The position numbers were made by a program, and so were the translations under genes. A stretch of DNA of 64,000 nt from Nitrospira sp. (GTDB lineage Bacteria > Nitrospirota > Nitrospiria > Nitrospirales > Nitrospiraceae): the NCBI GenBank assembly GCA_030123565.1, contig CP126122.1, forward strand, positions 4,354,800 to 4,418,799. Direction: 5' to 3'. This document shows positions 25,573 through 63,919 of the stretch, in pieces; the stretch's first letter is position 1; the number at the start of each line of letters is the position of its first letter. Under the pieces are notes generated by a model, which worked only from the letters and a program-made list of their open reading frames with translations, ran no database searches and was not told the origin of the DNA.

Positions 25573-27417
25573 TCACTGGTTGCGGTCTTGCGGTCTATGG
25601 AGCGTGATGGGGGTAAGGGCGTTTCGCAGGGCGATGATGATGGACTGGTCGAGGCCGGCCGACTTGAGTTGTTCATCGCCGGCGGCGGCGATGGCTTGGA
25701 GACTGCCGAATTGTTTCAAGAGTCGTTTCCGACGAATCTCACCGATGCCGGGGACCTGGTCTAGTTGCGATGACAGGAGGGCCTTGCCTCTCAGATTTCG
25801 GTGATAGGTCACGGCAAACCGGTGGGCTTCGTCTCGAATGCGCTGGACGAGGTGGGTGGCCGGCGAGGTCGGCCGCAGCAGGATAGGATTTTTTCTGCCC
25901 GGCAGGAAAATCCGTTCCTCTTTCTCACCACGGGCTTTGGCCAGGCCCATGATCGGGATCCGGTCCTGTCCGACCTGCTTGAGGCCCTCGAGCGCGGCGC
26001 TCAACTGGCCCAACCCGCCGTCGATGAGAATCAGGTCCGGGCGGGCGAGGTCTTCGGCGGCGCCGTAACGTCGCATCACGGCCTCCTGCATGCTGGCGAA
26101 GTCGTTGGCGCCCTCCACGGTTTGAATCCGGAATTTGCGATAGTCGGATTTCTTGGCCTGTCCGTCTTCCCAGACTACCAACGAGGCGACAGACTGATTG
26201 CCCATGATGTTTGAGATGTCGAATCCTTCGATGCGGCGCGGTGGCTTGTCGAGGCGAAGCAATCGTTTCAGCTCCGCCGTGGCCTGTCGATCCAAGGCTT
26301 CATTCCGGAGATGGTCGGCGATCGCGGCTCCGGCATTTTCTTCTGCGAGCAGGACCAATTGATGTTTCGCGCCTCGCTCGGGGGCCATGAGGCGCACGGT
26401 CTCGCCCCGTTTTTCGCTCAGCCACTGTTCGATCAGTTGCGCGTCGTCGAGAGCGGTCGGCACCAGGAGTTCCTTGGGCGGCTGCCCTTCCTTGTTGTAG
26501 AACTGTTCGATGGCGGAGCGGACCAATTCCTCATCGCCGTTGTCGGCACCCTGGGGCCAGAAAAAATCCTTGCGGCCGATCAACAGGCCGCCGCGCACGA
26601 ACAACAGTTGGAGGTCTGCCGCGGTTCCCTGCCGGGCCAGGCCGATCACATCCTGATCGGTGGCGGTGACCTGCGTGATGCGCTGTTTCTCCAGCGTACG
26701 TTCGACCTTGAAGAGTCGGTCCCGCAACCGGGCCGCCTCCTCGAATTCCTCCCGCTCCGCCGCCTGCTCCATGGCCTGTCGCAGGCTGTCCAGCAGTTCC
26801 CGGTCTCGTCCCTCGAGAAACTGGCGGACCTGTTTCACGATCAGGTGATAATCGTCGCGGGACTGGTTGCCGATGCAGGGCGCCATGCAGCGCTTGATTT
26901 CGAATTCGATGCAGGCGCGCTCGGCCTTGCCGTCGATGTCGATTTCGCAGGTGGCAAGCGGAAAGACCTTCCGGATGACCTTCAGCGTTTCGCGCAACGC
27001 GCCGGCCGGCGTGTAGGGGCCATAGTAGAGTGCGCCGTCTTTCTGCACGCGGCGGACGATAGAGAGCCGCGGAAAGTTTTCCTTGATGGGCAAGCGGAGG
27101 TATGGGTACTGCTTGTCGTCGCGCAGGACCACGTTGAAACGCGGGCGATGGCGCTTGATCAGGTTGCTTTCGAGGATCAGCGCTTCCAGCTCGGAGCGGG
27201 TGACGATGGTTTCGAGGTCGGCGACCTCGTTAACGAGCAGGCTGGTTTTCGGGGTCTGGTCGCTGCCCTTCTGGAAATAGGAGCGGACCCGATCCGCCAG
27301 CACAGCGGCCTTGCCGACGTAGAGAATCTCCTTCCTCTCGTTCTTAAACAGGTAGCAGCCTGGTTGCTCCGGCAGGTGGTCGAGTTTGGATTGGAGGAGA
27401 TCAGGAGATGTGGCCAT
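25573..27417 (-). CDS. uvrC: UvrC excinuclease subunit
   Basis: 614 residues, standard length. The GIY-YIG nuclease domain is at the N-terminus (PGCYLFKNERKEILYVGKA, then ELEALILESNLIKRHRPRFN). The Cys-rich segment ERACIEFEIKRCMAPCIG and a UVR domain (EREEFEEAARLRDRLFKVE) follow. The RNase H-like nuclease domain (RRIEGFDISNIMG, PDLILIDGGLGQLSAAL) comes next, then C-terminal helix-hairpin-helix motifs (LDQVPGIGEIRRKRLLKQFGS). UvrC makes both incisions around a lesion during nucleotide excision repair with UvrA and UvrB. It stands alone here, not beside uvrB. Confidence 0.97.
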   Translation of the reverse strand: MATSPDLLQSKLDHLPEQPGCYLFKNERKEILYVGKAAVLADRVRSYFQKGSDQTPKTSLLVNEVADLETIVTRSELEALILESNLIKRHRPRFNVVLRDDKQYPYLRLPIKENFPRLSIVRRVQKDGALYYGPYTPAGALRETLKVIRKVFPLATCEIDIDGKAERACIEFEIKRCMAPCIGNQSRDDYHLIVKQVRQFLEGRDRELLDSLRQAMEQAAEREEFEEAARLRDRLFKVERTLEKQRITQVTATDQDVIGLARQGTAADLQLLFVRGGLLIGRKDFFWPQGADNGDEELVRSAIEQFYNKEGQPPKELLVPTALDDAQLIEQWLSEKRGETVRLMAPERGAKHQLVLLAEENAGAAIADHLRNEALDRQATAELKRLLRLDKPPRRIEGFDISNIMGNQSVASLVVWEDGQAKKSDYRKFRIQTVEGANDFASMQEAVMRRYGAAEDLARPDLILIDGGLGQLSAALEGLKQVGQDRIPIMGLAKARGEKEERIFLPGRKNPILLRPTSPATHLVQRIRDEAHRFAVTYHRNLRGKALLSSQLDQVPGIGEIRRKRLLKQFGSLQAIAAAGDEQLKSAGLDQSIIIALRNALTPITLHRPQDRNQ

Positions 27418-54262: not shown

Positions 54263-55336
54263 ATGCAGCGAGCAGCCTGTTTCCGGCCTAACCTTCTCAC
54301 ATGCCTTCCGCTCTTCTGTCTTGTCGTTTCCTTTTTCACGTTCGAGTCATCGGCAGCCACATCCGTTGAATCGGCCAGGCGCAGTTATGAACGGGGCGTC
54401 ACGCTCTTTCGCGAGGGCGATGCCGACGGCGCGATCGAGGCGCTGAAGAAGGCGATCGCCCAGAATCCGAAATTGGCCGAGGCGTACCATGTGTTGGGAC
54501 TGGTCTACTTCCAGAGCAAGCGCAATCCGGATGAGGCGATTCAGGCGTACAAACAGTCGCTGAAGTTGGGCCCGCCGTCGGCGGAGATCCTCAATGACCT
54601 GGCCGATGTGTACCTCGCGCAGGGACGGGGGACCGACGCGGAGGCGACGCTGCGGCAGGTCCTGGATATCGCGCCGGGAAACGAAGAGGCCCATCTGGAT
54701 TTGGCGCGGCTCTATGAAGAACGGCATGATCGTACGAACGCCGTGAAGATGTATCGATCCTTGCTGAGGGTGCGGCCCGACCATGCGGAGGCCCTGTACC
54801 ATCTGGCCAATCTCTACGACAGCCAAGGCGACCTCAAGATGGCTCGGGAGCAACTCACCCGCCTCACGCAGGCGAATCCACGGCATGCCGATGCCTGGTA
54901 TCTGCTCGGGCGCCTTGCCGAGCGGGGAAACGACTTGCACGCGGCGGCTGCCGCCTTTCAGCAAGCCATTGCGGTAAAGCCGGATCTGGTCGATGCCCAT
55001 TACAACCTGGCCTTCGTCTACCGGAGTCAGGGGCTGTTACCGGAAGCCGAGCGAGAGTTTCTGGAAGTGGTCCGGTACCGCCCCGAATATGCGGAGGCCC
55101 ATTTGAATTTGGGGATGGTCTATACCAGCTTGAATCGATTGGACGAGGCGGAGAAGGAGCATGAACGGGCCATCGCCCTCAAACCCAATTCGGCGGAGGC
55201 TCACTACAACCTCGGGGTCTTTTACGAACTCCACCGCAAGGACATGGTCAGGGCCCTGGCGCAATATCGGCGGTACCGGGACCTGGGCGGACGGGATGAA
55301 CGGGTGGAGCGCATCATCGGCCTCGGAGGCTCTTAG
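54263..55336 (+). CDS. Exported tetratricopeptide-repeat protein
   Basis: 357 residues from the ATG at 54263, chosen because a signal peptide follows (LLTCLPLFCLVVSFFTFESSA); the open frame extends to 53999 without secretion features. About eight to nine TPR units follow from residue 35 (SYERGVTLFREGDADGAIEALKKAI, LAEAYHVLGLVYFQSKRNPDEAIQAYKQSLKL, VDAHYNLAFVYRSQGLLPEAEREFLEVVRYRPEYAEAHLNLGMVY are representative parts). Such periplasmic TPR solenoids act as assembly scaffolds. No specific partner is visible; the next gene starts 85 bases downstream and may be co-transcribed. Confidence 0.85.
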   Translation: MQRAACFRPNLLTCLPLFCLVVSFFTFESSAATSVESARRSYERGVTLFREGDADGAIEALKKAIAQNPKLAEAYHVLGLVYFQSKRNPDEAIQAYKQSLKLGPPSAEILNDLADVYLAQGRGTDAEATLRQVLDIAPGNEEAHLDLARLYEERHDRTNAVKMYRSLLRVRPDHAEALYHLANLYDSQGDLKMAREQLTRLTQANPRHADAWYLLGRLAERGNDLHAAAAAFQQAIAVKPDLVDAHYNLAFVYRSQGLLPEAEREFLEVVRYRPEYAEAHLNLGMVYTSLNRLDEAEKEHERAIALKPNSAEAHYNLGVFYELHRKDMVRALAQYRRYRDLGGRDERVERIIGLGGS

Positions 55337-55421: not shown

Positions 55422-55727
55422 ATGAGAAGTCCGTTCTTCAGAACCATCGTCTGGGTCGTGGCCTGTGCCGTGATCGTGTTGCTGGGCCTGACGACCGGCA
55501 GCGCCGTGGCGCACGAGATCCAACATGCGGCGCATCACAACGCCGGCATGCATGGGTCCGGTATCTGTGCCTGGATGTGCGCCGCCGCCGGGGCACATGT
55601 GGTGACCCCCGTTCACCAGGCGCAACTGTTTGATCTGGTCGGCCACGTTCCTCTCCGTTCCGACAAGACGTATCTGTCTCAACCGCTCGTCCAGAGCCGG
55701 CCTCGCGCACCCCCCATTTCCGCCTGA
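55422..55727 (+). CDS. Small membrane protein with His cluster and CAWxC motif (copy 1)
   Basis: 101 residues. One N-terminal membrane segment (IVWVVACAVIVLLGLTTGSA) is followed by HEIQHAAHHNAGMHGSGICAWMC, a His-rich stretch running into a Cys pair spaced CxxxC, then a hydrophobic AAAGAHVV. The C-terminus ends VQSRPRAPPIS. The protein at 59542-59862 has the same layout (HSGFCAWAC, and ending ASRAPPDRS), so the two are paralogues at either end of the locus. The His/Cys layout suggests metal binding in the periplasm, but the family is not one I recognise with certainty. Confidence 0.65.
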   Translation: MRSPFFRTIVWVVACAVIVLLGLTTGSAVAHEIQHAAHHNAGMHGSGICAWMCAAAGAHVVTPVHQAQLFDLVGHVPLRSDKTYLSQPLVQSRPRAPPISA

Positions 55728-55854
55728 TCCCCGGTTCACGTTGTGCCGATCGCGCTCCGCCCGTGATGCAGGAGCGCGTGCGGGCACAGTTCAGGCTCTG
55801 TTGCGCCTGGGCAGGCGCATTCCTTTTCCAGACCCTTCATGAACGAGGCGATAG

Positions 55855-57123
55855 ATGTGCAGGGTTCCTGACTTCAGCGTGGTCCTGAGGGCCGCCGTGG
55901 TTCTGTTCTTGATGTCCGGCTCCAGTGCCGTGGCGTCGGCCGAGAATGGCCGCCAGGCTGCCGTCGTGCTGGAGGCGCCCCTCACACTCCTGCAGGCGAC
56001 GACGACGATTTCCCCTCCCACCCTGCGTTTCAGCCGAGAGGGGCAGTTGCACGCCGCCTGGATTGAGAAAAGCGGGGGACAGGGAGAGGTCACAACGGTG
56101 CAGGTTCCGGCTGGCCAATCGGCGGCAACACCGGTGCGGGTGAGTCCGGCCGGAGACGGGCCGGAAGCCGTCCATCAGTCGCCGGGGTTTGCCATCGGGA
56201 CCGACGGGGCTCAGTTCGTCACCTGGTCTTCCGCCAACAGGGCTCCGGGGTCGTTGTTCGCGTCGGACCTCAAGCTCACCCGCTCGGCCGACGGCCACCT
56301 CTTCCAGGCGCCGGTGCAGGTCAATGACGATGGGTTGGCCATCTCGCATACGTTTGAAGACCTGTCCGTGGGCAAGGACGGCGAGGTCTATATCGCCTGG
56401 CTGGATGGACGAAACAAGGATCGGAGCGGAGCCGGTGCCATGATTGCCTGCTCGCGAGACAACGGGGCCACGGTCGGGAAGAACGTGGTGATCGATGGAA
56501 TGGCCTGCCCCTGTTGCCGTCCGATGCTGGCCCATGCGCCGGATGGATCGCTGTGGGTCGCCTGGCGCAAGACCTTCGAGGGAAATGTGCGGGACATCGT
56601 GATTGCCCGTTCGACCGATCAGGGACGCACCTTTTCTCCGCCGATGGTGGTCAGTCGTGATGGGTGGGTCTTCGACGCCTGTCCTCATCGAGGCCCTTCG
56701 ATCGCCTTCGATGGCCGGGGACGGCTCTATATCGGCTGGTACACGGAGGGTAAGGACGAGCAGCCGCGTCTCTTCATCGCCACGTCGGACGACCAGGGCG
56801 CTACCTTTTCAACAGCGGCGGCGCTGCACTCCGCCGTGACCTCACTGCCGGACAACCTGCAGATGGCGGTCCATCCGGACGGACAGATCGTGGCCGTGTG
56901 GGAAGAGGTCACCGGAGTGCGGAAGCGAGTGGTCATGCGGGTTTCGACGGATCGCGGGCAGACATTCGGTCAGATGCAGACCTTGAGCGGCGGGTCCAAG
57001 GCCGAGCACCCGACGGTGGCGATCCACGACAGTGGAAGGGTGGCGATCGGCTGGACCGAACATGCATTCCCGCACAACAAGATCATCGTGCAACAGGGGC
57101 AATTGCAGCGGGCGGCACAGTAG
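55855..57123 (+). CDS. Exported Asp-box (BNR/sialidase-like) beta-propeller protein with CPCC motif
   Basis: 422 residues with a signal peptide (VVLRAAVVLFLMSGSSAVASA). At least four Asp-box repeats (SxDxGxTF/W type) are visible: SRDNGATVG, STDQGRTFS, TSDDQGATFS and STDRGQTFG, plus a looser SADGHLFQ. These mark a six-bladed sialidase-like propeller. No sialidase catalytic Arg triad or Tyr/Glu pair can be recognised, so enzymatic sialidase activity is doubtful. DGMACPCCRPMLA and FDACPHRGPS provide four cysteines in the middle of the fold that could bind a metal or form disulfides. Its place between CAWxC proteins, TonB and a TlpA-like thioredoxin argues for a role in periplasmic metal or ligand handling. 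Confidence 0.75.
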   Translation: MCRVPDFSVVLRAAVVLFLMSGSSAVASAENGRQAAVVLEAPLTLLQATTTISPPTLRFSREGQLHAAWIEKSGGQGEVTTVQVPAGQSAATPVRVSPAGDGPEAVHQSPGFAIGTDGAQFVTWSSANRAPGSLFASDLKLTRSADGHLFQAPVQVNDDGLAISHTFEDLSVGKDGEVYIAWLDGRNKDRSGAGAMIACSRDNGATVGKNVVIDGMACPCCRPMLAHAPDGSLWVAWRKTFEGNVRDIVIARSTDQGRTFSPPMVVSRDGWVFDACPHRGPSIAFDGRGRLYIGWYTEGKDEQPRLFIATSDDQGATFSTAAALHSAVTSLPDNLQMAVHPDGQIVAVWEEVTGVRKRVVMRVSTDRGQTFGQMQTLSGGSKAEHPTVAIHDSGRVAIGWTEHAFPHNKIIVQQGQLQRAAQ

Positions 57124-57169
57124 CGCAGTGCGGTCGGCCCCATTCCAAGGGCAAGCAAGCGGAGGCGTC

Positions 57170-57628
57170 ATGAAGAAGCAGGCCTGTCAGAGAGCGAAGT
57201 GGATCGGTGTCCATGGGCTGATGGGGGTGGCGTTTCTGTTGTGGGCCTCGGTTGTTTCCGCCGCCGACGCGAAGGGCGAAAAGACGTTCCATATCGTCGT
57301 GACCGACCAGCAGGGCGTCGAAACCGAACTCAAGAACGGCATCTTCTATTGGGAAGAAAAAATGAGCGAGACCTCCTTCGTGCCCCATGAACTTCGGCAC
57401 CTGCCGTCCAAACGGGGCACGGCCACGGTCAACATCAAGTTCGAGCAGATCAAACAGATCGAGATCAAGCCAGGCGCCGACAAGGCCGCGCCTTCGATGA
57501 CCGTGACCTTGACCAACGGCAAGAACGGAGAATTCGTTCCGGCGGTGGACGGCAGCTTCAAGGGCGAGTCCGATTTCGGGCAGGTTGAGGTGCCGATCGG
57601 ATCGATTTCCAAAGTGGTGTTCAAATAA
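57170..57628 (+). CDS. Small exported protein of unknown function
   Basis: 152 residues with a signal peptide (LMGVAFLLWASVVSAADAKG). The start at 57170 has GGAGG 4 bases upstream. The body is beta-rich: TFHIVVTDQQGVETELKNGIFYWEEKMSE, LPSKRGTATVNIKFEQIKQIEIK and a C-terminal VEVPIGSISKVVFK. The phrase 'I.f..I..I.ik' around a carbohydrate-module-like core suggests a small sandwich domain, but I cannot name it. It sits between the propeller and tonB, 34 bases before the latter. Confidence 0.6.
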   Translation: MKKQACQRAKWIGVHGLMGVAFLLWASVVSAADAKGEKTFHIVVTDQQGVETELKNGIFYWEEKMSETSFVPHELRHLPSKRGTATVNIKFEQIKQIEIKPGADKAAPSMTVTLTNGKNGEFVPAVDGSFKGESDFGQVEVPIGSISKVVFK

Positions 57629-57662
57629 CGCGAGGATGGATCGTTTCGGAAGGGGGCATCCC

Positions 57663-58907
57663 ATGGACAATGTGCTCATGGCGCAATCTGGACAATCCAA
57701 ACAGGCATTGCAGGGGTGGGGAGTATCCTGCCTGTTGCATGCCTGCCTCGCGCTGGCCGCGTTCGTCCTCATGCCGAAGATGGCTGTGCTGGTGCAGCAC
57801 GAGCCGTTCAAATGGGACGTGGCCTTGGTGGAGGCTCCGCGCGAGGTCGTGCGATCGGAAGAACCGGCACCGGCACCTCAGGCGCAGCCTCCGACAGCGA
57901 TCAAACCGCGGCGTGAGCCGGTGCGTGCCGTCGAGCCGCCTCCCCAGCCGGTACAGCGACAGGTGGAAACGCGGATGGAACCTCAGCCGGTTCAACGGGC
58001 GATGCAACCGGTAGAACGGGTGGTGCAGCCGGTGCAGCGGGAGCCGCAGCCGGTCGTCGAAGCGGTTCGGCCGAAGGAGCAGATTCAACCGCCGCAGGAA
58101 GTCGTTCAGGTGCAGCCCAAGCCTATCGAGCAGCAGGAGGTTCAAAAAACCGAGCCGGTGGTTCAGGCCGCGACTCCAGCCGAGGTGAAGCAAGAGGTCG
58201 CTCCGGCGGTTGAGCAGAAGGTCGTCGAATCGATGCCTGTTGCAGCCCAAACCTATCAGGCGCAGCCGGTGGTCAGCGCGCCTCCCGCCGTGAAGACCAA
58301 GCCCGAGCCGGTGGTGACGGCGACTGCGCCGGTTGTACAGCAGGCTCTTGCTGCTCCGGCCGTCGAACCGGCTCCGGAGGGCCCGACTCCCGCGCCCCCG
58401 ATGAAAACGACAACCGCAGCCAGTGAGCCGCCTCCCGCTGCTCCAGTTCCTGTTGCAGCGGACCCGGCCCCAACGCCGCCCGCGCCGGTTGCGGCGGCAG
58501 AGCTGGAACCGGCCGTAGCGCAGCCTGCAGCTGCTGCCGAGGCACAGCAGGATCCCGCCACGCTGCAAGAACATCAGGTCGTGGCCCGCGCGGTCACCCC
58601 GAGGCCTGCGACCAAGGCCGACTATGGTTGGTTGGCGGAGTCGCTCCATCGCCGCATCATCGAGTTGCGACATTATCCGAGCACTGCCCGCTTGAACGGG
58701 TGGGAAGGCAAGGTCGTGCTGAAGGTGTCGATCAAGAAAGACGGGCAACTGAAGGATGTCGAGGTCGTAAAGAGTTCCGGCCATGAGTCGCTGGATCAGG
58801 CGGCGATGGAAGCGGTGCGGCGAGCCTGTCCTCTGCACATGAAACATGAGCTGGCGGCCCCGATGGTCGTGTTGCATCTTCCGGTCAGTTACAGCCTGAA
58901 TCGATGA
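57663..58907 (+). CDS. tonB: TonB energy-transducing protein
   Basis: 414 residues from the ATG at 57663, which follows GAAGGGGG. One N-terminal membrane helix (GVSCLLHACLALAAFVLM) is followed by a very long periplasmic spacer of about 270 residues rich in Pro, Val, Gln and Glu (repeats like QPVQR, VQPKP). The C-terminal TonB domain is SLHRRIIELRHYPSTARLNGWEGKVVLKVSIKKDGQLKDVEVVKSSG, ending HLPVSYSLNR. TonB transmits proton-motive force from ExbBD to outer-membrane receptors. No exbB or exbD lies in the window, so it must use energisers encoded elsewhere. Confidence 0.92.
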   Translation: MDNVLMAQSGQSKQALQGWGVSCLLHACLALAAFVLMPKMAVLVQHEPFKWDVALVEAPREVVRSEEPAPAPQAQPPTAIKPRREPVRAVEPPPQPVQRQVETRMEPQPVQRAMQPVERVVQPVQREPQPVVEAVRPKEQIQPPQEVVQVQPKPIEQQEVQKTEPVVQAATPAEVKQEVAPAVEQKVVESMPVAAQTYQAQPVVSAPPAVKTKPEPVVTATAPVVQQALAAPAVEPAPEGPTPAPPMKTTTAASEPPPAAPVPVAADPAPTPPAPVAAAELEPAVAQPAAAAEAQQDPATLQEHQVVARAVTPRPATKADYGWLAESLHRRIIELRHYPSTARLNGWEGKVVLKVSIKKDGQLKDVEVVKSSGHESLDQAAMEAVRRACPLHMKHELAAPMVVLHLPVSYSLNR

Positions 58908-59011
58908 CCGATTGTTGAAACAGGCCGCCGGCTCAGCAGGTCCTGCTGGTGTCACCCTAAAGGTGGCGGCTGAAGCGGAACAATAACTGAGGCAGGCGTG
59001 TTGGTGGAACG

Positions 59012-59545
59012 ATGGTGGTGACGGCATTCATGAGAGTCCTCCTCTTGTCGGGTGCCGTTGCGTTGACTGCAAGCCCTGTATCGGCCGACGATCCCATGGC
59101 GGCCTTGAAAATCGCACGGGTCGCTCCGGGAACCGCCGCCACCCCATTCGACTTGAAGACATTGGATGGCCGCTCTGTTCAGCTCGCGGACCTGAAGGGG
59201 AAAGTGGTCCTGGTGAATTTCTGGGCCACCTGGTGCGGCCCCTGTAAAGAGGAAATGCCGGGCTTCGAACGGTTGCGGCAGCGGCTGGACCCTGAACGGT
59301 TCGCCCTCGTCACGATCACCACCGACTTGCAGCGGGACGGCATCAAGCATTTTTTGACGAACCTGAACGTGCAGCTTCCTGTGTTGTTCGATGAAGATCA
59401 GGACGTGTCCCGTGCGTACCTGGTGCGGGCCTTGCCGACCACCGTGCTCATCGATCGACAAGGGACCGTGGTTGGACGCGCCGTCGGGCCGCGTGAATGG
59501 GATGCTCCCAAGACGATTCATCTGCTGCAGGGTATGACGGAATGA
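59012..59545 (+). CDS. TlpA/ResA-like thiol-disulfide protein, exported
   Basis: 177 residues from the ATG at 59012; an ATG at 59030 is also possible. Signal peptide LLLSGAVALTASPVSADD. The thioredoxin fold has the active site VVLVNFWATWCGPCKEEMPGF and the cis-Pro in RALPTTVLIDRQG. TlpA/ResA-type proteins reduce specific periplasmic disulfides, for example in cytochrome c or copper-site maturation. The neighbours carry several Cys pairs (CAWxC, CPCC) and may be its substrates. It overlaps the next gene by 4 bases. Confidence 0.9.
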   Translation: MVVTAFMRVLLLSGAVALTASPVSADDPMAALKIARVAPGTAATPFDLKTLDGRSVQLADLKGKVVLVNFWATWCGPCKEEMPGFERLRQRLDPERFALVTITTDLQRDGIKHFLTNLNVQLPVLFDEDQDVSRAYLVRALPTTVLIDRQGTVVGRAVGPREWDAPKTIHLLQGMTE

Positions 59546-59862
59546 GCCGCGCGCAACGATCGTTCGCCGGCCTCGCGGCCCTCCTCGCCGGGACCTATCT
59601 GGTCCTGGCCGTCTTTTCCATGGCCTGTGCTGTCGAACATCTCGAGCTGCAGACCTCGGGCCATCACCATGGCAGTACGGTTTCCCACTCCGGCTTCTGT
59701 GCCTGGGCCTGCCAGGTCAATCCCATGTCTGCCATCGGATCTTCCGCCTTCGTGCTGCACCCGTTTCTTGCGGCCGCTCCCTTCGTCCAGAGCGGCCACG
59801 TCGTCATCGCAAGTGTCAGTGGATTCCACGCAGCCTCCCGCGCGCCTCCTGATCGATCGTAA
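59542..59862 (+). CDS. Small membrane protein with His cluster and CAWxC motif (copy 2)
   Basis: 106 residues. The ATG overlaps the TlpA-like stop (ATGA), so the two are translationally coupled. An N-terminal membrane segment (FAGLAALLAGTYLVLAVFSMA) is followed by EHLELQTSGHHHGSTVSHSGFCAWACQVNP, a His-rich run leading to the Cys pair as in the 55422-55727 protein, then a hydrophobic stretch and ASRAPPDRS. Coupling to a thioredoxin-like protein suggests its Cys pair is redox-controlled. Family not recognised; some small copper-related membrane proteins (DUF2946 type) have a similar His plus CxxC layout. Confidence 0.65.
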   Translation: MSRAQRSFAGLAALLAGTYLVLAVFSMACAVEHLELQTSGHHHGSTVSHSGFCAWACQVNPMSAIGSSAFVLHPFLAAAPFVQSGHVVIASVSGFHAASRAPPDRS

Positions 59863-59985
59863 TTCCTTTTCATATCGTTGGTCGTGCCGGCGCTCTTGCC
59901 GTCCGCTCAGACAGGGACGGCGAGGGTGTGTCTGTGCCGTCGTGTGAACGGGTGTGCCGGGAGGAAGTGTAGTAAGGAGGTCGCC

Positions 59986-60180
59986 ATGACGAAACAATTG
60001 TTGCGGGTCGGAGAAGCAGCGGAAGTGTTGGCGGTCAGTCGTTGGACGATCTATCGGTGGGTGGACGAAGGGCGGTTGGAGGGGACGAAGATTGGGCGCG
60101 GCAGTTTGCGGGTGTTTCGCGCCTCCCTCGACCGGCTGGTGCAGAACAACAAAACGCAAGAACTGAAATTATCGGTGTGA
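59986..60180 (+). CDS. Small excisionase/MerR-type HTH protein
   Basis: 64 residues from the ATG at 59986, with AAGGAGG 6 bases upstream. The sequence LLRVGEAAEVLAVSRWTIYRWVDEGRLEGTKIGRGSLRVFRASLDRLV is a complete winged HTH of the excisionase-family type (helix-turn-helix, then a wing with IGRGSLRV). Such proteins can be recombination directionality factors or simple regulators. There is no integrase nearby and it lies 7 bases before the amidohydrolase gene, so a local transcriptional regulator is the better guess. Confidence 0.85.
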   Translation: MTKQLLRVGEAAEVLAVSRWTIYRWVDEGRLEGTKIGRGSLRVFRASLDRLVQNNKTQELKLSV

Positions 60181-60187
60181 GGGACCT

Positions 60188-61609
60188 ATGAGCCTCGTCT
60201 TGTCTCTTCTGGCCCTGCTGCTGACCGGCTGTGTCGGCGGCTCCGACCTCGCATCGTCTCCCGGAACGGCACCCGTGACCGGGTCATCGGAGGTCGAGAA
60301 CTATGCCCTCTTGAACGGCCGGTGGTTCGACGGAAAGGGGTTCGAAGCCGCCACCTGGTATTCGGTTCAGGGCCGCCTGACCCGCAATCCGCCGCAGGGC
60401 AGACTGGAGGTGGTCGATCTTTCCGGCCTGTTCATCGTCCCGCCGTTCGGCGAGGCTCACAATCACAACGTCGAGGGTCCGTGGAATCTTCAGGCCGTGA
60501 GTGAGCGGTACCTGAAGGACGGAGTATTCTACGTAAAGATTCCGAACAATGTGCGCGAGTTCGCGCTGCAGATCCGAGGCCGGCTCAATCTGCCGACGAG
60601 TCTCGATGTGGCCTTTGCCCATGCGGGGTTGACCGGTCGGGGCGGCCATCCGATCGCGCTGTATGAGGATGTGTTGCGGAGGAGTTGGTATGAACAGGCG
60701 ATCGGACCAATCGAACGGGGTTGGTTCGAAAACCGTTCCTATGTCGTGGTCGAGACGGAACGCGATGTGGAGGAAAAGTGGGCCTTGATCACCAGCGGTC
60801 GGCCGGATTTCTTGAAGGTCTACCTGGTCCATTCTGAAGATGACGCTCCGGATCGGCGGTCCGGACAGGCGGTCGTCCGTACCGGCCTCAGGCCGCAACT
60901 GTTGCCGCGCATCGTTGCGAAGGCGCATGCGGCTGGTCTGGCGGTGACGGCCCATGTGGAAACGGCGGCAGACTTTCGTCAGGCGGTCCGCGCGGGGGTC
61001 GATGAGGTCGCCCATGTGCCGGGATGGCTGGTGAAGGAGGCCGGTGATGCGGCAGGCGCCAGGCTGACGGAAGAGGACGCCCGTTTGGCTGCGGAACGAA
61101 AGGTCCGTGTCGTGACCACGACCGTGGCGGGGCATGCCATGCCGACCGACGCCGGCCGCCATCCACAGCATGGTGGGCAGGCCGCGAAGCAGGCCGGCCA
61201 AGGCGAACCGGTGCTGGATGAGTTGGCCTGGCAGGTGGTGAAGGACAACCTCACCCTCCTCCATCGTGCCGGTGTGCGATTGGCGATCGGCAGCGACCAT
61301 GCGGATACGTCCTTGGACGAAGTCCTGCACCTGCGTTCCTTGCAGATTTTCGACGACCTCACCCTGTTGAACCTCTGGTGCGACGAGACCCCCGCCGCCA
61401 TTTTCCCCGGTCGAAGGATCGGGCGATTTGAGGAAGGGTACGAAGCGAGTTTTCTGGCGTTGGGCGGCAATCCCCTCGATGATTTCACCCAGGTGCAGGC
61501 CATCCGTCGCCGCTTCAAACAGGGCGTACTGCTGAACGATCGCGTCGGTGGCGACGCGGCTCCTTCCGGGAGCGGCCATGGGATCCCCGATAGGCAACCA
61601 TCACAATGA
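60188..61609 (+). CDS. Amidohydrolase-family lipoprotein
   Basis: 473 residues. The N-terminus is a lipoprotein signal with a clear lipobox (LALLLTGCVGG). The TIM-barrel metal motifs are GEAHNHNVEGP (first HxH), AVTAHVETAADF, VDEVAHVPGWL and IGSDHADTSL (metal/catalytic Asp region). It lacks an obvious carbamylated Lys, and SFLALGGNPLDD at the C-terminus is the usual imidazolonepropionase-like ending. It hydrolyses an unknown amide or cyclic substrate on the periplasmic face of a membrane. Located between the HTH gene and the TonB-dependent receptor, it may process the imported ligand. Confidence 0.85.
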   Translation: MSLVLSLLALLLTGCVGGSDLASSPGTAPVTGSSEVENYALLNGRWFDGKGFEAATWYSVQGRLTRNPPQGRLEVVDLSGLFIVPPFGEAHNHNVEGPWNLQAVSERYLKDGVFYVKIPNNVREFALQIRGRLNLPTSLDVAFAHAGLTGRGGHPIALYEDVLRRSWYEQAIGPIERGWFENRSYVVVETERDVEEKWALITSGRPDFLKVYLVHSEDDAPDRRSGQAVVRTGLRPQLLPRIVAKAHAAGLAVTAHVETAADFRQAVRAGVDEVAHVPGWLVKEAGDAAGARLTEEDARLAAERKVRVVTTTVAGHAMPTDAGRHPQHGGQAAKQAGQGEPVLDELAWQVVKDNLTLLHRAGVRLAIGSDHADTSLDEVLHLRSLQIFDDLTLLNLWCDETPAAIFPGRRIGRFEEGYEASFLALGGNPLDDFTQVQAIRRRFKQGVLLNDRVGGDAAPSGSGHGIPDRQPSQ

Positions 61610-61657
61610 TCGTGACTCATAGAGGTACACAGTCATTCACACAGGAGGAGCAGAGAG

Positions 61658-63919
61658 ATGAAGTCAGGGCTGTATTGGACAGGCAAAGCGGGGATGGTCT
61701 GCTTGGTTGCCCTGTTGGCGGTAGGCCTTCAGCCGCCGGGCGGTTGGGCGGCCGAAGAGCCTCCCGAAGAAGAAGTGCCGATCGTGGCCGTCGAGCCGGT
61801 CGAGGTGAAGGGGAAGCGAATCGAAAACGTCGAGGACGTGAAACAGGAGCTCGCCCGCCGTCCCGGCAGCAATATCCTCATCGAAGAAAAGCAGATCACC
61901 GAGACAAGGGCCTTCAATCTTCAGGATGTGTTGCAGTTCGCGCCCGGCGTCCGGTTTCAATCGCGTTTCGGCGCCGACGAAGGGCAGTTTCAGATCCGCG
62001 GCACGTCGTTGCGCAACAACTTCCACCATCGCGGCATCAACATCCTGATCAACGGGATTTTCTTCGGCGATGCCGACGGCTTTTCGGACTTTGAATCGAT
62101 CGACCTGTTGGCCTACGAGCGCATCGAGGTCTACAAGGGCGCCAACGCCTTGCGTTACGGCGCGAACACCATCGGCGGTGCGATCAACCTGGTGCCCCGC
62201 ACCGGCTACAACGCCTCGACCCTGCAGATGCGGATGCTGGCCGGCAGCTTCGGCATGGTGAGCGGCCAAGTTTCCAGCGGGAAGGTGCTGCAACCCTTCC
62301 AGGTCGGCAACATGAGCGCGACGATGGACTACTACATCAGCGTGTCCGGCAATCGCCAGGATGGATTCCAAGACAACAACCAGCAGGCCAGGGAGCGCGT
62401 CAATGCCAACATCGGCATTCAGTTGGGCAATCACCAGGAAATACGCGCCTACTTTCTCCAGGCGAATGTGGCAGAGCGCATTCCCGGCTCACTGACCAAT
62501 CAACAGCTGTTTTCCAATCGGCAACAGGCCGGCGGACAAAGCCCTCCCGGAACCCCGCCGTTTTTTGCCTGTAACCTGAGTAACCAGGTCTGTAATTACG
62601 GGCGCTACTACAATTTGCAGCGTATCGGGATCGCCTACCGTAACGAGTTTGCAGCCAATCAATATGTCGAGATCGTGCCGTACTTCTCGAACCAATATGT
62701 GGACCATCCGATTTTCCAGACGATCAGGCAGGAAAACAACAATGTGGGCGGAGAGTTCCGGTACGTCAATTCCAATTCACTGTTCGGTAAAAACAACTCC
62801 TTCGTCGTGGGGGTCCAGCCGCGGTACGGCAATCAGCGTCAGCAACGGTTCGTCAATATCAACGGCAGCATCGGGGCGATGACGCAGAACTACACGGCCA
62901 AGACCACGTACTTCGGCGTCTATGCCGAGGATGCCTTCGATGCGACCAAGGATTTCACGATCGTGATCGGCGGCCGCTGGGATTACAGCGGGCGTCAGGC
63001 GACGGTGGATAACTTCGGGCCGGCCGGGAACCCGTTCAACCCCAATACGCCGTCCACGCCGACCGGCACCCAGCGGCCGCTGCAACATTTCGATGCGATC
63101 AACCCGAAGCTCGGATTCGTCTATCGCACGACGCCGACTTCGCAACTGTATTTCAACGCGAGCCGGGCCTATGAGGCGCCGCTCAATCTGGAGTTGCTGT
63201 CTTCGGTCAATGCGAACGGCAGCGCCAACACCGGCTTCCTGAATCTCGATGCGCAACGGGCCTGGCAGTTGGAACTCGGTCACCGGGGAGCGTCGGCCGA
63301 TAAACGCTACAGCTGGGATGTCACGGTCTACAATCTCGAGATGCAAAAAGAGATTCTGGCGTCGAACATCAACAACCAGAGTACGTTTCAGAACGCCAAC
63401 GGGACGCGCCACACAGGCGTGGAGGTCGGCGGCGGAATGGTTTTGACGAAGGGACTGTTCGCGCAGGGTGGAGCCGGCAAGGAGGACAGCCTGCAGACGC
63501 GCGTGGCCTATACCTGGTCGCGCTTCAAGTTCACCGACGATGTGCGGGGGGGAGGCATCGGCGGTCCCAACGTCTTGATTGCGAAAGACGGCAATACGGT
63601 CGCCGGTGCGCCGGAACATAACCTGAACCTGGAGCTTCGATACGACCATCCGGCCGGTTGGTGGATCGCGCCGAATTTCGAGTGGTCCTTGTCAGGGTTC
63701 TATACCGACTATCTCAACACGGTGAAGAATCCGTCTTATTTCGTCGTCAACCTGCGTTCCGGGTACAACATCGGTGACCATTGGACCCTCTTTGCCGAAG
63801 GCCGCAACTTGACCGACAAGACCTACGCCGGAGCGGTGGTCGTCAACGATCAGTTCAATCGGTTCGCCAATCCCGGATTGGGCATCAGTGGATTCGCGGG
63901 GGTGGAATACAAGTTCTAG
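61658..63919 (+). CDS. TonB-dependent outer-membrane receptor
   Basis: 753 residues with a signal peptide (GMVCLVALLAVGLQPPGGWA-AEE). A candidate TonB box lies in the EEEVPIVAVEPVEVKGKR region. The plug domain follows (RAFNLQDVLQFAPGVRFQSR, FQIRGTSLRNNFHHRGINIL, FESIDLLAYERIEVYKGANA, IGGAINLVPRTGY), then a 22-strand-type barrel ending in ...GFAGVEYKF with C-terminal Phe. Asn/Gln-rich extracellular loops are prominent (NNQQARERVNA, NRQQAGGQS). The resemblance in the plug is to siderophore/metal receptors, but the substrate cannot be read. It probably works with the TonB encoded about 3 kb upstream. Confidence 0.93.
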   Translation: MKSGLYWTGKAGMVCLVALLAVGLQPPGGWAAEEPPEEEVPIVAVEPVEVKGKRIENVEDVKQELARRPGSNILIEEKQITETRAFNLQDVLQFAPGVRFQSRFGADEGQFQIRGTSLRNNFHHRGINILINGIFFGDADGFSDFESIDLLAYERIEVYKGANALRYGANTIGGAINLVPRTGYNASTLQMRMLAGSFGMVSGQVSSGKVLQPFQVGNMSATMDYYISVSGNRQDGFQDNNQQARERVNANIGIQLGNHQEIRAYFLQANVAERIPGSLTNQQLFSNRQQAGGQSPPGTPPFFACNLSNQVCNYGRYYNLQRIGIAYRNEFAANQYVEIVPYFSNQYVDHPIFQTIRQENNNVGGEFRYVNSNSLFGKNNSFVVGVQPRYGNQRQQRFVNINGSIGAMTQNYTAKTTYFGVYAEDAFDATKDFTIVIGGRWDYSGRQATVDNFGPAGNPFNPNTPSTPTGTQRPLQHFDAINPKLGFVYRTTPTSQLYFNASRAYEAPLNLELLSSVNANGSANTGFLNLDAQRAWQLELGHRGASADKRYSWDVTVYNLEMQKEILASNINNQSTFQNANGTRHTGVEVGGGMVLTKGLFAQGGAGKEDSLQTRVAYTWSRFKFTDDVRGGGIGGPNVLIAKDGNTVAGAPEHNLNLELRYDHPAGWWIAPNFEWSLSGFYTDYLNTVKNPSYFVVNLRSGYNIGDHWTLFAEGRNLTDKTYAGAVVVNDQFNRFANPGLGISGFAGVEYKF

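Follow-up and report, generated by a model that had tools for sequence, protein, structure and literature searches.

What are two small His- and Cys-bearing proteins, CAWxC1 and CAWxC2, doing in a locus of Nitrospira sp. that also encodes TonB and a TonB-dependent receptor, and what does that locus handle? The window that we analysed is a stretch of 64,000 nucleotides (assembly GCA_030123565.1, contig CP126122.1, positions 4,354,800 to 4,418,799), and all of the genes of the locus listed in a first-pass annotation made from the sequence alone are open frames on the plus strand at the positions given by that annotation (Table 1). Its description of the two CAWxC proteins as paralogues also holds, in that both fall within one family profile although they are only 21% identical, as does the overlap that it had noted between the genes for the TlpA-like thioredoxin and CAWxC2, where the start of the second lies within the stop of the first over four bases (ATGA), which points to translational coupling. 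The listed genes belong to the set, but its end at 63919 does not stand: the locus continues beyond that point through an S9-type peptidase gene, a third CAWxC gene (CSWAC, RAPP; G000 contig 1 4420928-4421437, equivalent to L002:12929-13438), a gene for a 114-residue protein and then further genes. Further 3' of the third CAWxC gene come genes for proteins resembling cupredoxins and DsbA, and one for a P-type ATPase that has a CPC motif as well as YHS and HMBD domains. The third CAWxC gene itself, which sits after the S9 peptidase, has no obvious large gene directly 3' of it.

Table 1. Features of the CAWxC-TonB locus, in positions of the window
Feature	Position	Strand	Remark
TPR-repeat protein	54263..55336	+	upstream neighbour, kept in most relatives
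CAWxC1, SGICAWMC, 41-residue spacer, RAPP-ISA-stop	55422..55727	+	putative copper-sensing arrest peptide 5' of Asp-box gene
C>G stretch, second half of CAWxC1 and start of spacer	55625..55760	+	Rho-loading-type composition
Strong hairpin, CAWxC1-Asp-box spacer	55743..55787	+	hairpin region kept in 13 genomes, weak covariation
Asp-box beta-propeller, CPCC and CPH, N-terminal hydrophobic helix	55855..57123	+	'sialidase family' annotation in relatives
Small beta-rich protein, signal-like N-terminus	57170..57628	+	no family; 55-86% identity within Nitrospira
TonB energy-transducing protein	57663..58907	+	TonB_C 6e-18
Deletion junction, ~3.6 kb of relatives missing	58928..58960	+	comparison with relatives
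TlpA/ResA-like periplasmic thioredoxin, WCGPC	59012..59545	+	family match
CAWxC2, SGFCAWAC, 42-residue spacer, RAPP-DRS-stop	59542..59862	+	putative arrest peptide, start within tlpA stop
Structured leader 3' of CAWxC2	59863..59985	+	helices 59877-59891, 59892-59927, 59938-59964
Deletion junction, TBDR_A receptor gene of relatives missing	59971..59974	+	comparison with relatives
Small HTH_17 DNA-binding protein	59986..60180	+	HTH_17 9e-12
Amidohydrolase-like lipoprotein, LLTGC lipobox	60188..61609	+	Amidohydro_1 2.6e-5, just below Pfam cut-off
TonB-dependent receptor TBDR_B	61658..63919	+	family match 1e-40; PqqU/YncD nearest solved relative

Conservation of the gene set was one of the checks that the first-pass annotation had proposed, and the TonB-linked locus is indeed kept in most relatives (Candidatus Nitrospira defluvii is one of the named relatives). 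The order of genes, taken from 20-kb stretches of most relatives and with some blocks absent in some genomes, is TPR protein, CAWxC1, propeller, small beta protein, TonB, a second TlpA, a CAWxC gene, a porin, a second propeller, TlpA, CAWxC2, receptor A, HTH protein, amidohydrolase, receptor B, S9 peptidase and CAWxC3. CAWxC1 and CAWxC2 occupy the same places in most of these genomes. Compared with this order, the window genome lacks approximately 3.6 kb between TonB and TlpA (the second TlpA, a CAWxC gene, the porin and the second Asp-box gene) and approximately 2.7 kb carrying receptor A, and the receptor-A leader now abuts the HTH gene. With receptor A deleted, CAWxC2 would now control the HTH-amidohydrolase-receptor segment, which we count against the reading proposed below. 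In a near relative (G006) the HTH and amidohydrolase genes are lost too, whereas both CAWxC genes, the CPCC protein, TonB, TlpA and the receptor are kept. The earlier suggestion that the amidohydrolase, a lipoprotein with weak similarity to Xaa-Pro dipeptidases, processes a metal carrier was therefore rejected; no metallophore genes were seen either. The HTH_17 protein lies inside the locus in most relatives, which is unusual for an excisionase-like domain, and is perhaps a local regulator. The small beta-rich protein (FYWEEKMSETSFVPHELRHLP) is highly conserved and adjoins tonB in the Nitrospira loci seen; its model is of low confidence and gave no fold match at E 0.001.

What is conserved within the CAWxC family itself bears directly on its role. 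In an alignment of 18 members the only invariant residues are C, C, R, P and P, corresponding to a CxxxC pair and a C-terminal RxPP. The loci analysed contain 146 ORFs of this pattern, of which 144 have CxxxC and 138 end in RAPP (103) or RGPP (35), with the second cysteine separated from the arginine by 41 (64 ORFs) or 42 (72 ORFs) residues in 136 cases and the stop codon following RxPP within eight residues in all but one. A hydrophobic N-terminal segment, as judged by hydropathy only rather than by a signal-peptide predictor, is present in 98% of 136 CAWxC ORFs, and at least three histidines precede the Cys pair in 97% of them. The pattern of CxxC or CxxxC, spacer and RxPP end is expected 0.25 times per window under residue shuffling, and the window contains the two real CAWxC matches and one further match at 26649. 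The latter (26649-26834, minus strand) was set aside as a chance match, being arginine-rich and having neither a signal nor a His stretch. The family profile matches 59 of 61 related genomes and all 47 of those of good quality. Two of them (G015 and G029) have ten CAWxC-type ORFs each by the profile, suggestive of a wide regulon.

Published copper-sensing leaders have a closely similar design. The nascent CruR protein of Bordetella pertussis senses copper by a CxxC motif, RAPP located 45 residues further on arrests the ribosome, and release of the ribosome lets Rho end transcription ahead of the receptor gene (PMC9426467). In CutF of Rhodobacter capsulatus the Cys motif is CxxxC, the end is rich in proline and a stem-loop covers the ribosome-binding site of the next gene; its sense of control is opposite to that of CruR (PMC9973294). 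A third report found RAPP and RGPP to be the strongest of the arrest motifs that it tested in several contexts, and in many phyla genes for small exported proteins with these motifs lie 5' of TonB- and Cu-related genes (PMC12992588). Because the invariant residues of the CAWxC proteins, together with their 41/42 spacing, are those of this arrest-leader design (PMC9426467, PMC9973294, PMC12992588), the first-pass proposal that these proteins capture a metal is not supported, and we consider it likely that they are copper-sensing arrest peptides in a copper locus. Stable periplasmic or membrane proteins for the capture and onward transfer of copper could make use of the His-rich stretch and Cys pair for binding and of the hydrophobic N-terminal segment, but the CAWxC sequence drifts nearly everywhere except in the Cys pair, the spacing and the RxPP end, and such a role leaves the invariant RAPP/RGPP near the stop and the structured leader unexplained, so that we regard it as very improbable. 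Formal membership in DUF2946 (PF11162) was also rejected: CAWxC1 scores 11.5 bits against a Pfam cut-off of 23.7, the model gives weak matches in 9 of 18 members (best E 0.034) of which none reaches the cut-off, and the profile-profile comparison is weak (33%) and limited to the surroundings of the Cys motif, which counts against our reading. Since the cut-off is missed, our claim is that the CAWxC proteins work like CruR and not that they are members of DUF2946. A search of NCBIfam gave no consistent match.

The positions of the family members suggest what they would control. The gene 3' of a CAWxC ORF encodes a receptor in 58 cases, an Asp-box propeller in 18, a porin in 17 and the second TlpA in 5. 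Sixteen homologues lie directly 5' of the Asp-box gene, every one of them with a spacer of 41, and 42 members lie directly 5' of a receptor of type TBDR_A, as CAWxC2 does in most relatives. A spacer of 41 accompanies propeller, porin and TlpA, and a spacer of 42 accompanies receptors. An unlinked fourth CAWxC-like ORF in the same genome (G000 contig 1 2375159-2375452, minus strand; L174) has an intact RAPP and lies directly 5' of the gene for an 833-residue TonB-dependent receptor, but CQWVQYH replaces its Cys pair, the second cysteine being gone. This is a point against copper sensing, and the fourth copy may sense another metal. The CAWxC copy of other families within the order is mostly 5' of a porin-like outer-membrane protein. 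Separately, in six loci of another family of the order (L205, L206, L211, L212, L218 and L220) a uORF with an RGPP end lies 5' of the gene for an outer-membrane-like protein in which an MMGD/EHTH motif is conserved. A conserved secreted protein is encoded next, and the set is possibly another copper module.

The RNA that follows CAWxC2 is itself conserved. Aligned over 21 genomes, this leader has three conserved helices comprising 26 pairs, with 98.2% of cells paired, a percentage that is biased upward because the structure was derived from the same alignment. Changes on both sides of a pair occur in 20 cells, the covariation is 0.229 as against 0.146 in shuffles (none of 500 shuffles being as high), and sliding the partners by 1-3 columns lowers pairing to 46-58%. 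Part of the GGGAGGA ribosome-binding site lies within the third helix; the mean unpaired probability of the site is 0.04-0.55, and removal of the first 45 bases raises it only modestly and unevenly, a point against the leader mechanism. The strong hairpin in the CAWxC1-propeller spacer has a covariation term near zero, which also counts against it. Over the final 120 bases, C exceeds G in 98-100% of the CAWxC genes with a spacer of 41 or 42, compared with 0-26% of most other genes at the locus; such composition is the mark of the Rho site in cruR (PMC9426467), and Rho was found in the genome. A few neighbours (SLP, DEGP, CUP and PORIN) also have ends in which C exceeds G, which counts against the specificity of this feature.

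The identification of the metal as copper is supported by the neighbours of the propeller in an independent lineage. Cys218, Cys220 and Cys221 (CPCC) and Cys276 (CPH) of the propeller do not vary in any of the 35 sequences from the order, nor in wider alignments, its model is confident (pLDDT 88) with a fold like those of sialidases and lectins (Foldseek E 1e-12 to 1e-10), and relatives of it occur in 39 of 61 related genomes. On a Roseobacter plasmid the CxCC propeller adjoins genes for CopC, CopD and a multicopper oxidase, and on a Sulfitobacter plasmid it adjoins genes for a multicopper oxidase, a heavy-metal ATPase and mercury functions, the oxidase/ATPase pattern recurring in most of the alphaproteobacterial loci screened by motif; the neighbours in Roseobacter relatives include MerA. 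These neighbourhoods in marine alphaproteobacteria lend weight to the copper link of the first-pass annotation, and we also counted the CPC ATPase 3' of the locus in this genome toward copper. A 'sialidase' gene has been reported within a cluster raised under copper limitation in Nitrososphaera viennensis (PMC7785015).

The nearest solved relative of TBDR_B is PqqU/YncD (E 7e-28), and the receptors are closer to PqqU than to the OprC copper receptor, which counts against copper uptake. An assignment as PqqU was nevertheless rejected at 135 bits against the NF041535 cut-off of 1200. Assignment as an OprC-type copper receptor was rejected as well, the OprC/NosA model TIGR01778 being absent from the 23 families that the window receptor matches (E 0.1) and, for the other receptors of this genome and its relatives, from the best 25 matches listed; this genome gave no match to the CopB family. 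It could be argued from the PqqU similarity that the CAWxC proteins are arrest peptides that sense zinc, nickel, the thiol-redox state or export, and that the locus takes up a cofactor other than a metal, for instance PQQ. The TlpA neighbours would fit a Cys pair that could sense redox, and nickel/cobalt genes accompany His-only CutF-like proteins, though it is mostly copper genes that Cys-type CutF-like proteins precede (PMC9973294). Given this, the shortfall of the window receptor from the PqqU cut-off and the copper neighbours of the propeller in an independent lineage, we consider such an explanation unlikely. The locus is probably one for copper homeostasis, and probably for copper uptake, as the presence of TonB and receptors would imply.

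We propose that the CAWxC protein is a small exported protein whose job would be done during its own synthesis, after which it would be disposable. The emerging His/CxxxC region would bind copper, and the C-terminal RAPP/RGPP would halt translation a few codons short of the stop. Continued stalling or release of the ribosome would then decide the fate of the structured, C-rich stretch behind the CAWxC gene, which would either let Rho end transcription or hide the next ribosome-binding site. The segment of the CPCC propeller would be under the control of CAWxC1 and the receptor segment under that of CAWxC2, whose synthesis would directly follow that of TlpA, with TonB powering the receptors, TlpA keeping periplasmic thiols reduced and the CxCC propeller handling copper in the periplasm. 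For the receptor segment the logic of CruR is likelier than that of CutF: scarce copper would stall the ribosome and the receptor would be made, and plentiful copper would switch the segment off. Under the opposite logic copper would lengthen the stall, the leader would unfold and the segment would come on, making this a locus for copper defence or handling rather than uptake. In its favour are the Cys motif, which is CxxxC like that of CutF and not CxxC, a folded leader that extends to the ribosome-binding site, the copper-resistance genes that adjoin the CxCC propeller in Roseobacters and the downstream CPC ATPase, but the commonest controlled genes are those for TonB and receptors, which fits uptake, and the C>G ends fit Rho control in the manner of CruR; we think it rather unlikely, though worth keeping in mind. 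One might tentatively suggest that serial arrest peptides split one copper locus into segments, the two sub-types (41 for propeller and porin, 42 for receptors) being set at different copper levels to give a graded response of its handling and uptake parts, but we regard this extension as somewhat doubtful.

PcoB/CopB has been reported almost only in comammox members of Nitrospira (PMC13374858). A TonB locus under copper-sensing leaders is a testable answer to the question of how copper crosses the outer membrane of nitrite-oxidising Nitrospira. If this is correct, co-translational copper sensing extends to a phylum with profile matches in nearly every genome searched and up to ten copies per genome by the profile, and serial arrest peptides in one locus become open to experiment.

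In the literature searched, neither such a sensor in Nitrospira nor several copies in a row was found described, and the available portion of PMC12992588 reports neither the Nitrospira locus nor a serial arrangement. The arrest peptides of PMC12992588 share with the CAWxC proteins the RAPP/RGPP motif near the stop, small exported proteins and TonB- or Cu-related genes 3' of them. TBDR_B has PqqU/YncD as its nearest solved relative but is far below the cut-off of that family and stands in a copper-like context. The locus propeller shares its fold and BNR repeats with sialidase-like Asp-box propellers, but its mature sequence lacks the RIP/FRIP motif and has an invariant CxCC...CP, and its family, unlike sialidases, has copper-gene neighbours in Roseobacters. 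With CruR and CutF the CAWxC proteins have in common a Cys pair and RAPP/RGPP at a fixed spacing and an N-terminal hydrophobic segment. CAWxC genes lie on the same strand directly 5' of genes for a receptor, porin or propeller, which may serve copper. The likeness to CutF consists of CxxxC, a proline-rich end, a probable Sec-type signal and a putative stem-loop that would cover the ribosome-binding site of the next gene; however, CutF controls a multicopper oxidase that copper switches on, whereas CAWxC genes precede those for receptors, porins and the propeller. The likeness to CruR (Bp2923, DUF2946) consists of an export signal, a Cys pair, a fixed spacer, a C-terminal RAPP, a late-gene stretch in which C exceeds G, a structured spacer and a receptor gene 3' of it. 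The CAWxC proteins differ from it by CxxxC in place of CxxC, by a spacer of 41 or 42 rather than 45, by falling below the DUF2946 cut-off and by occurring as several copies in series, one of them apparently within an operon. By published description a CruR gene opens its operon, whereas CAWxC2 overlaps tlpA, a difference that counts against the comparison. The kind of sensor is thus already known; new, as judged by the literature searched, would be the CxxxC peptides with their 41/42 spacers, their serial arrangement in one locus, the coupling of one arrest peptide to tlpA and the control of a CxCC propeller together with receptors.
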